Source: Synechococcales cyanobacterium bin31.maxbin.ball.101 (lineage in GTDB: Bacteria > Cyanobacteriota > Cyanobacteriia > Leptolyngbyales > Leptolyngbyaceae). From it: a stretch of 33,619 bases of DNA. The position numbers and the translations under genes are program-made. Positions 4,734-31,524 of the stretch are shown here, piece after piece. Location of the stretch: NCBI GenBank assembly GCA_013298165.1, contig JAAFJU010000041.1, forward strand, positions 1 to 33,619. Reading direction: 5' to 3'. Below the pieces are notes generated by a model. That model saw only the letters and a list, made by a program, of their open reading frames with translations, had not been told where the DNA came from and searched no databases. How positions within the stretch are numbered: the first letter of the stretch is position 1; each line of letters starts with the position of its first letter.

Positions 4734-5021
4734 CTAGAAAAGTGCCGTGAGATCACGATCGCCTCTTACGACCCGTGCGATCGTAACGGCTTCATCGGTG
4801 ACTTGATAGAAAATGATATAGCGATCGAGCAAGATGCCACGGAGTCCAGGGTCTAAATCAGCGTAGGATTTTCCAATCCATGGAAAACTCACAAGATATC
4901 GGCATTTCTGAGTAAACTTTTTTAGGAACTGTTCTCCAGAATCAAATCCTCGATCGCTTAAGTAATCGACAATTTCTTCCAAGTCATAGCTTGCTGTCCG
5001 AGCGATTTCGTACCGTCTCAT
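4734..5021 (-). CDS. RelE/ParE-superfamily toxin
   Basis: A 95-residue basic protein with the ParE layout: an N-terminal strand (YEIARTASYDLEEIVDYL), two helices, FPWIGKSYADLDPGLRGILLDRYIIFYQV, and a final VTIARVVRGDRDL strand. The hydrophobic strands and the C-terminal arginine motif are typical of the ParE branch, which poisons DNA gyrase; RelE-type mRNA cleavage is the alternative. Its ATG overlaps the antitoxin stop by four bases (ATGA), so the two are translationally coupled, as expected for a type II module. The length is normal and the frame intact, so it is probably functional. Confidence 0.85.
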   Translation of the reverse strand: MRRYEIARTASYDLEEIVDYLSDRGFDSGEQFLKKFTQKCRYLVSFPWIGKSYADLDPGLRGILLDRYIIFYQVTDEAVTIARVVRGDRDLTALF

Positions 5022-5287
5022 AGAGATTGTGTGCGTTTCTGTGCAAGTCGTTGTTGAAGCCGATCGATGACCATTTCACCATCTAGGACATCTCCACGGG
5101 CAATATCATCTAAACCGACACGAACCTTGATCCGTGCTGCTTCTAACCAGACTGGATCATGGGCTTCTCTCGAACTTGCCATCATCTCTAAGGCGATCGC
5201 AATAACTTCTTCAGGACTTGAGAACTGACCGCTTTCGAGTTGGGTCTGGACAAAATCAGTTTGGTCAACAGTTAGCAGGATATTCAT
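5018..5287 (-). CDS. ParD-like antitoxin
   Basis: 89 residues. The N-terminus (MNILLTVDQTDFVQTQLESGQFSSPEEVIAIALEMM in two parts) has the ribbon-helix-helix pattern of ParD/CopG antitoxins: a short strand, then helices with the spacing 'F...QLESGQFSSPEEVIA'. The C-terminal half is charged and likely disordered until it wraps the toxin. It is the first gene of the two-gene operon, overlaps the toxin by four bases, and probably represses its own promoter with the toxin as co-repressor. No operator was recognised in the 240 bp upstream. Confidence 0.82.
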   Translation of the reverse strand: MNILLTVDQTDFVQTQLESGQFSSPEEVIAIALEMMASSREAHDPVWLEAARIKVRVGLDDIARGDVLDGEMVIDRLQQRLAQKRTQSL

Positions 5288-7823: not shown

Positions 7824-9091
<1,268 letters not shown>

Positions 9092-9337
9092 CTAGCCGAT
9101 CGACATACGTCCACTGCCACGATAGGCGGTTTCGATTCGACCGCTGCCGCGATAGGCCGTTTCAACTCGTCCACTGCCGCGATAGGCGAGTTCGACTCGA
9201 CCGCTGCCGCGATAGGCCGTTTCAACTCGACCGCTGCCGCGATAGGCGAGTTCAGAGAGATCTGCTTTAGGGACAGCGTTGAGAACGGGGACGATTGCAA
9301 GGAGTGTAGACAGAAAGAGAATGGATTGAGCGCGCAT
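9092..9337 (-). CDS. patX: PatX-like secreted peptide precursor with five RGSGR motifs
   Basis: 81 residues from the ATG at 9337. Residues 1-21 (MRAQSILFLSTLLAIVPVLNA) form a signal peptide with a likely cleavage after Ala21. A short spacer (VPKADLS) follows, then five exact 10-residue units of the form E-(L/T)-A-Y-R-G-S-G-R-(V/I/M), ending SIG. RGSGR occurs at 33-37, 43-47, 53-57, 63-67 and 73-77. RGSGR is the inhibitory pentapeptide of PatS and HetN; PatX proteins are exported, carry RG(S/T)GR and lie beside hetR in many filamentous cyanobacteria. Location, signal peptide and motif all fit patX. Unusual points are the five copies and a Tyr before each motif, where PatS and HetN have Glu. 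The start has no strong ribosome-binding site. The inference is that processing releases several HetR-inhibiting peptides per precursor. Confidence 0.92.
   Translation of the reverse strand: MRAQSILFLSTLLAIVPVLNAVPKADLSELAYRGSGRVETAYRGSGRVELAYRGSGRVETAYRGSGRIETAYRGSGRMSIG
9104..9253 (-). repeat. Five 30-bp tandem repeats encoding ExAYRGSGRx
   Basis: Exactly 150 bp, 5 x 30, in frame with the peptide gene. The unit is GAA-(CTC/ACG/ACC)-GCC-TAT-CGC-GGC, followed by codons for Ser-Gly-Arg and one hydrophobic residue. Within the RGSGR codons every difference is synonymous (AGC/AGT, GGT/GGA, CGA/CGT, CGC/CGT). The order Leu-Thr-Leu-Thr-Thr at the second position suggests a 60-bp duplication plus a further unit. 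Confidence 0.95.
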
Positions 9338-9419
9338 AATAGTCTATTGGGTATGTAACTATTCACTCATACAGACTCTCCGTAGTGAGATCAGGAAACA
9401 TTCCAGGATTTCTCGATAT

Positions 9420-30795: not shown

Positions 30796-31524
30796 TCATG
30801 TCCCCCCAGAATTGGGGGCTAGAGGGCTTTCCGCCAGCGTCTCTGGCAATGTCTCTGGCAATGTCTCTGGCAACGAAGGCCGCAGGAGCAAATACACCAA
30901 TGGCCCAAACAACGGAATCAATGACACCGCGACAAAAACACGATCGTCCTCCCACCCGCGTCTACTCATGTCATCCTTAATCAACGTAGGAAACAAACAG
31001 GACAACATACAAAAATCCAAACTCATCACATGGATAAACCGACTCGATCGCCACTGCATCGCAAAATCAGCCCAATCCCCTCGCGTCAAACCCAAAAACA
31101 ATAAACTCAACGCCGCCACCGCAATCAAACTCGCCGTAATCTTGGAATCCCAAAGCTTAATCACCCAATTCTTTTTCCCGACAAACGTGGGATTGTCTCG
31201 ACGCAAGATCAAGTAAGGCAACAGAGCAAAGGCTCCCAACGCAAACGATCCGGCACTAAAGGCCCAAGCAGGGAGCTTCTGTCCCCGACCATCGCAATAC
31301 AACAGACAGCAATACATCAACGGCAAAACGCCCATGATATTAAACAAATTCGCCACTAAGGGATTTACCCCCTCGAACTTCCCGCTCGACAGGTTGATAA
31401 TCAAATCCAACGTATCCGGCGAATCCGGCGGCGCAAACACAAACGCATAGGTGCCAAATGCAATCCAAAGAAGGCCCAGAAAGACAGAGCGAAGTAAAGA
31501 AGAATTTAGCAAAGTTGAGTTCAC
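30796..31524 (-). CDS. Hypothetical multi-pass membrane protein with repeat-derived C-terminus
   Basis: 242 residues from a GTG at 31524. About five or six membrane helices (for example SVFLGLLWIAFGTYAFVFAP, LFNIMGVLPLMYCCLLYCDG, FVAVSLIPLFGPLVYLLLRP). I do not recognise a named family. The end is odd. After LLLRPS comes the sequence LPETLPETLPETLAE from 12-bp repeats, then SPLAPNSGGT, coded by a half copy of repeat family B. The original stop was probably lost and the tail extended. It follows the GT39 gene by 23 bp. Confidence 0.65.
   Translation of the reverse strand: MNSTLLNSSLLRSVFLGLLWIAFGTYAFVFAPPDSPDTLDLIINLSSGKFEGVNPLVANLFNIMGVLPLMYCCLLYCDGRGQKLPAWAFSAGSFALGAFALLPYLILRRDNPTFVGKKNWVIKLWDSKITASLIAVAALSLLFLGLTRGDWADFAMQWRSSRFIHVMSLDFCMLSCLFPTLIKDDMSRRGWEDDRVFVAVSLIPLFGPLVYLLLRPSLPETLPETLPETLAESPLAPNSGGT
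30797..30836. repeat. Half copy of palindromic family B
   Basis: GTCCCCCCAGAATTGGGGGC then TAGAGGGCTTTCCGCC corresponds to the inner right arm of the element at 13018-13168 (CCCCCAGGATTGGGGGCTGG). The rest of the element is absent. It overlaps the last codons of the membrane-protein gene. Confidence 0.7.
30841..30876 (-). repeat. In-frame 12-bp tandem repeats encoding PETL
   Basis: CTCTGGCAATGT occurs at 30841-30852 and 30853-30864, with a third partial copy from 30865. It encodes PETL repeats near the C-terminus of the membrane protein. Confidence 0.88.

Follow-up and report, generated by a model that had tools for sequence, protein, structure and literature searches.

The window, by which we mean the whole 33,619-nucleotide stretch of DNA analysed here, carries a small gene on its minus strand 362 bp upstream of hetR and in the same orientation. 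The features of this locus are listed below, each with the evidence by which it was recognised.

9092..9337, minus strand: patX, multi-copy form (ORF list; motif positions and codons; relatives with patX at the orthologous position and with a like promoter element and N-terminus)
9275..9337, minus strand: hydrophobic, signal-peptide-like N-terminus MRAQSILFLSTLLAIVPVLNA, about residues 1-21 (hydropathy)
9101..9253, minus strand: tandem array of five AYRGSGR units (residues 31-37, 41-47, 51-57, 61-67 and 71-77) with three-residue linkers VE[TL] or IET (TRF, codon table)
9391..9396, minus strand: TCCTGA, a DIF1-like element at -59 of patX (motif search, shared by patX loci)
7824-8732, minus strand: hetR, the presumed receptor gene (NCBIfam NF009718: 550 bits, cut-off 489)

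The patX ORF starts with ATG and encodes a product of 81 aa, MRAQSILFLSTLLAIVPVLNAVPKADLSELAYRGSGRVETAYRGSGRVELAYRGSGRVETAYRGSGRIETAYRGSGRMSIG. A sequence-only reading of this DNA had placed five copies of RGSGR in one small ORF at 9092-9337, and the translation and motif positions bear this out: the motifs begin at residues 33, 43, 53, 63 and 73, a period of exactly 10. Its description of five perfect 10-residue repeats was slightly overstated. All five cores read AYRGSGR, whereas the linker positions change: V/V/V/I/M follows the motif, and L or T stands two residues before Tyr. At the DNA level, TRF resolves the array (9108-9253) with a period of 30 and 83% matches, or a period of 60 and 93%. 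Kyte-Doolittle hydropathy over a 15-residue window peaks at 2.47 at residues 5-19, and the N-termini of other PatX proteins are of comparable hydrophobicity. No Pfam domain in the protein scores above cut-off; a match to Tudor_4 falls below it and reflects the repeat.

The six frames of the window contain six RG[ST]GR motifs, five of them in patX; 60 dinucleotide shuffles gave 0.45 on average and never more than 3. Two ORFs overlap patX in other frames (9071-9358 plus, 9064-9366 minus), and we read both as by-products of a stop-free 30-bp repeat. The non-patX frames of the relatives with eight, three, nine and five copies all contain stops; one antisense frame over the array is open too, in the window and in the two-copy relative L038. 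A chance or spurious ORF is thus ruled out by the shuffles, the stops in most relatives' other frames and the conserved upstream element. An assembly artefact is unlikely, since the copies differ in DNA and similar arrays occur in independent genomes.

To place the gene among its relatives, hetR neighbourhoods were read in 41 genomes of the same order, a class-wide sample and 80 named loci. After removal of identical HetRs, 112 distinct hetR loci had a linked upstream gene with an RG[ST]GR motif, so that the patX-hetR arrangement of the window recurs in 111 further loci. A class-wide degenerate-DNA scan for double motifs proved too noisy, control patterns matching equally often, and the hetR neighbourhoods were used instead.

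The TCCTGA at -59 of the window patX is one base off the canonical TCCGGA. Of 111 linked patX genes, 109 have TCC[G/T]GA no more than 130 nt ahead of the start, for the most part as TCCTGA at -56 to -65, compared with 165 of 2220 random 130-nt windows from the same loci (7%). Almost every surveyed locus with linked patX has the TCCTGA form. The 2018 PatX paper reportedly places a DIF1 motif no further than 69 nt from every patX gene. In Anabaena, patS, patX and hetR are driven by DIF1 (TCCGGA) promoters (PMC7377430), and a DIF1 promoter is predicted ahead of patX-hetR in Leptolyngbya BL0902 (PMC11298460). The upstream element is decisive for membership in PatX, and position, size, N-terminus and motif agree with it. 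Every testable mark of PatX is found in the window gene, namely small size, a hydrophobic N-terminus, RG[ST]GR, a position upstream of hetR on the same strand and a DIF1-type element; therefore we take it to be PatX in a multi-copy form, which upholds the original proposal of a PatX-type precursor of a HetR inhibitor beside hetR. The single motif of the usual PatX is absent here, the protein having five. Because 27 of the 112 linked patX genes carry two to nine motifs, however, a single motif is the usual rather than the defining state.

The motifs number one in 85 of the 112 linked patX genes, two in 3, three in 9, four in 10, five in 3, eight in 1 and nine in 1, and all multi-copy genes fall in two lineages. 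The idea of the five-copy form as an isolated oddity is therefore not supported, 26 other surveyed hetR loci having two to nine copies. In the window's own Alkalinema clade, AYRGSGR occurs once (L026, L028), twice (L038), three times (L040), five times (window) and eight times (L036), and a further member, L039, has one intact motif and one decayed copy, RGSDR. In the second family (f13), nearly every linked patX found has two to nine motifs; a named member is MAG.87 (L118/L227), and Leptolyngbyaceae MO_188.B28 (L243) groups with f13 in the HetR tree. With column 254 left out, this tree requires a minimum of three changes between single and multiple copies, the most natural reading being two gains and one loss of the multi-copy state. 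Grouping all multi-copy HetRs in one clade is rejected (AU p 0.0055). HetR alone would allow the second family to be sister to the Alkalinema clade with its single-copy members counted in (AU p 0.415); genome classification places the two apart. The survey shows multi-copy PatX to have emerged in two or more lineages of cyanobacteria.

Some further loci deserve mention. The PatX of L136 has two decayed motifs, HRGSDR and FRSTGR, and one intact HRGSGR, which suggests a former multi-copy state in another family. At L111, two separate single-motif patX-like genes (RRGSGR, ERGSGR) lie upstream of one hetR; there it is the gene that was duplicated, not the motif. Phage, plasmid and viral collections gave weak matches only, none shown beside hetR, and these were taken as chance. 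The viral contig L263, in which a 159-aa open frame contains ELAYRGSGRID and hetR is absent, is probably a chance match.

Arrays that differ so much in length raise the question of whether their copies do anything. Under neutral repeat instability a single motif would suffice, and slippage or unequal recombination would add and remove idle copies. The range of 1 to 8 copies among close relatives fits such an account, as do the decayed RGSDR in one of them and the window array itself, a young 30/60-bp tandem repeat. Within that array, however, four core codon positions vary and all four changes are synonymous, where the expected synonymous fraction is 0.30, whereas the linker positions include amino-acid changes. 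The probability of four synonymous core changes is about 0.008, an approximate value that ignores recombination between copies. The second family bears on the same question. Eight of its genomes (L143, L161, L165, L166, L169-L171 and L159), from diverged genera, keep H, Y, H and Y before their four RG[ST]GR motifs, and seven of the eight keep Thr in copy 2 (RGTGR), with linkers that have diverged until they are barely alignable. A D, F, Y order is likewise found in three closely related genomes and one deeper relative. As these residues are absent from the search pattern, they are not an artefact of motif finding, and their retention across diverged linkers makes the second-family copies look individually maintained. 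Decayed copies are also rare: of 193 surveyed PatX motifs, 190 are unaltered and 3 carry a single mismatch, a count that copies with at least two changes would escape. Synonymous cores, kept copy-specific residues and few decayed motifs together argue for selection on the copies, and we consider it unlikely that the arrays are neutral as a whole. Among the closest relatives the number of copies shifts readily, and therefore part of the variation may be neutral.

We next consider the presumed receptor. The window HetR aligns without gaps to Anabaena HetR (4hri/4yrv). In the HetR-PatS6 structure the ligand is XRGSGR, with its free amino end held by E254 and D256, its two arginines held by E253, D270 and D278, and R223 near its carboxyl end (PMC4649674). 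Five of these six residues (R223, E253, D256, D270 and D278) are kept in the window HetR, and only two of 177 HetRs deviate at any of them; the sixth, E254, is replaced by Ala. The E254A change in Anabaena HetR shifts the Kd for PatS6 from 12 to 91 nM, about eightfold weaker (PMC4649674), and hence the window HetR may bind its peptide more weakly. All five distinct HetRs that accompany a PatX of at least five copies lack E254 (Ala in 2, Ser in 3; two lineages), as do 8 of the 85 HetRs with a one-copy PatX, though the association between E254 loss and copy number rests on too few independent events for a test. Thr or Val replaces E254 elsewhere beside single-copy PatX. L026 and L028 combine Ala254 with one PatX copy, and therefore the loss of E254 came first in the window's clade.

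A hypothesis suggested by this pattern is that a weaker receptor has been matched by more ligand. The fixed copy-specific residues further raise the possibility that one second-family precursor may yield different peptides. Joined together, these ideas would make dose and affinity co-evolve, E254 having been lost alongside at least five copies in two lineages, and would make the second-family copies (H-, Y-, D- and F-RG[ST]GR) fixed different peptides that carry several messages. We regard this combined proposal as speculative and rather doubtful.

The initial reading had also raised the concern that Tyr, as the residue before the motif, might change binding. This concern is weakened. Changing residue X of XRGSGR leaves the affinity for HetR unaltered, the main-chain amine alone making contact (PMC4649674), so that Tyr is probably harmless; it is also the commonest pre-motif residue in multi-copy PatX (44 of 105 motifs). 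On the other side of the motif, the next residue is aliphatic or Phe (I, L, V, F) after 78 of 87 f13 motifs and 17 of 18 motifs from the Alkalinema group. In most other single-copy PatX proteins the motif forms the C-terminus or is followed by Arg or Cys. At this position I, V or F already occurs in the Alkalinema clade's single-copy sisters, and the residue is therefore a lead to a cleavage signal and not proof of one.

The best explanation, and one that we think probable, is that multi-copy patX encodes an exported precursor that is cut to YRGSGR hexapeptides, which inhibit HetR, and that more copies give more inhibitor per translation event. The gene would be transcribed from the DIF1-like promoter upstream of hetR. 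The precursor would be exported by Sec, and a PatP-type peptidase in the periplasm would cleave it to give as many as five identical hexapeptides, which would re-enter the cells or their neighbours, bind the hood cleft of HetR and release it from DNA. Copy number would have grown by tandem duplication of a single ancestral motif and its flanks, each extra copy raising the yield. What can be read directly in the sequences is the array and where it lies, a promoter-like element, a signal-like N-terminus, the retention of five of six HetR residues, the multi-copy relatives and the conservation of individual copies. Export, PatP-type cleavage, a hexapeptide ligand and inhibition of HetR in the window's host would follow by analogy with Nostoc PatX and PatS. 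Nostoc PatX needs export and is cut by PatP, and HRGTGR binds HetR with a Kd of 88 nM and removes it from DNA (PMC12756182). The optimal HetR ligand has its free N-terminus one residue before RGSGR, longer N-terminal extension weakening the binding (PMC4649674). Because that ligand is a free six-residue XRGSGR, internal copies need two cuts, one N-terminal and one C-terminal. PatP is listed as penicillin-binding protein 10 (PMC7766704), suggesting that it belongs to PF00144; the window genome has exactly one PF00144 serine hydrolase match, with a signal-like N-terminus, and this is a candidate PatP. Processing of the window PatX into several active peptides is plausible. The release of all five copies and selection on dose are steps that we only infer.

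Five identical motifs at a regular 10-residue spacing could also suit an uncut precursor, acting as a multivalent ligand that binds several HetR at once. N-terminal extension beyond six residues lowers the affinity for HetR, however (PMC4649674), and the spacing of motifs is irregular in the second family. Nostoc PatX without its signal shows no HetR interaction and does not block differentiation (PMC12756182), so that export and cutting are needed. We find a multivalent precursor highly improbable.

The genome that holds the window is 5.39 Mb in size, spread over 356 contigs and 96% complete. Among named genomes, the HetRs closest to that of the window belong to Alkalinema sp. CAN_BIN05, Alkalinema sp. 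RU_4_3 and two unclassified cyanobacterial MAGs, and because of the Alkalinema relatives we take the host to be an Alkalinema-like filamentous cyanobacterium. Elsewhere in the window, the region 4734-5287 encodes a ParE-type toxin (PF05016) with a small upstream ORF that overlaps it by 4 bp and is probably its antitoxin; at 30839-30873, a 12-bp perfect tandem repeat encodes LPETLPETLPETL, close to the C-terminal end of the product of the minus-strand ORF 30796-31524. A search of the window genome for nifH gave nothing above cut-off. The best match, at 220 bits, is probably a chlorophyll-synthesis relative, and nitrogen fixation and heterocysts are therefore not expected in this host.

The main uncertainty is function, as PatX effects in a non-heterocystous relative are largely independent of hetR. 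In that strain, Leptolyngbya BL0902, deletion of patX changed expression in a manner that owed little to hetR (PMC11298460). The target of multi-copy PatX might thus not be HetR, or not HetR only, and the peptide might act on filament growth or cell lysis through another receptor. Besides the BL0902 transcription effects, such a proposal can draw on the missing E254, a helper in peptide binding, and on the nifH result, from which it follows that the role is not heterocyst patterning. It has more difficulty with the patX-hetR linkage, kept in 112 loci, and with the near-invariance of the other five peptide-binding residues. We judge another target to be unlikely and retain HetR inhibition by peptides cut from the precursor as the preferred reading.

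PatS, HetN and the window PatX all carry the HetR-inhibiting RGSGR. PatS is a tiny cytosolic peptide with the motif at its C-terminus, not known to leave the cell by Sec, and HetN is a ketoacyl-reductase-like protein; the motifs of the window PatX are internal and repeated, in a protein where no Pfam domain reaches cut-off. Neither PatS nor HetN is known to lie upstream of hetR in non-heterocystous strains. PatX of Nostoc and Anabaena (asl2332 and orthologues; Elhai & Khudyakov 2018) is alike in being a small exported-type protein with RG[ST]GR and a DIF1-type element, and PatX stands beside hetR in non-heterocystous strains as it does in the window. The usual PatX has one motif preceded by His, whereas the window PatX has five in tandem, at a 10-residue period, preceded by Tyr. 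PatX with several motifs was not described in the literature searched; Elhai & Khudyakov 2018 may mention such forms.

Other multi-copy precursors are known. The RRNPPA propeptides (NprR, AimR, PlcR, Rap) have up to six peptide copies, and a similar processing puzzle has been discussed for them (PMC9765709). RRNPPA precursors share the presumed plan of the window PatX: a bacterial protein is exported with several copies of a short peptide whose target is an intracellular regulator encoded next door. Their receptors, however, are TPR proteins of Firmicutes and their peptide is unrelated; the neighbour of the window patX is HetR and not a TPR receptor, and the window gene would work alike without being a member. 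The precursor of yeast alpha-factor contains several copies of one secreted signal, but it is eukaryotic and has defined sites for processing proteases, none of which were identified in the window PatX. Taken together, the window gene most likely belongs to PatX and functions in the manner of a multi-copy prohormone; that reading, proposed at the outset, is the best supported, backed by the multi-copy relatives and the kept copies. HetR and PatX are the model peptide-inhibitor pair of bacterial multicellularity, and a natural series of 1, 2, 3, 4, 5, 8 and 9 copies allows one to ask whether precursor copy number sets signal dose. The series also bears on how internal copies are released and on the role of the peptide in filaments that never make heterocysts. 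It is a cyanobacterial addition to the few known bacterial multi-copy signal precursors, and bacteria seem to pack several copies of a developmental signal into one precursor, much in the way of certain hormone precursors.
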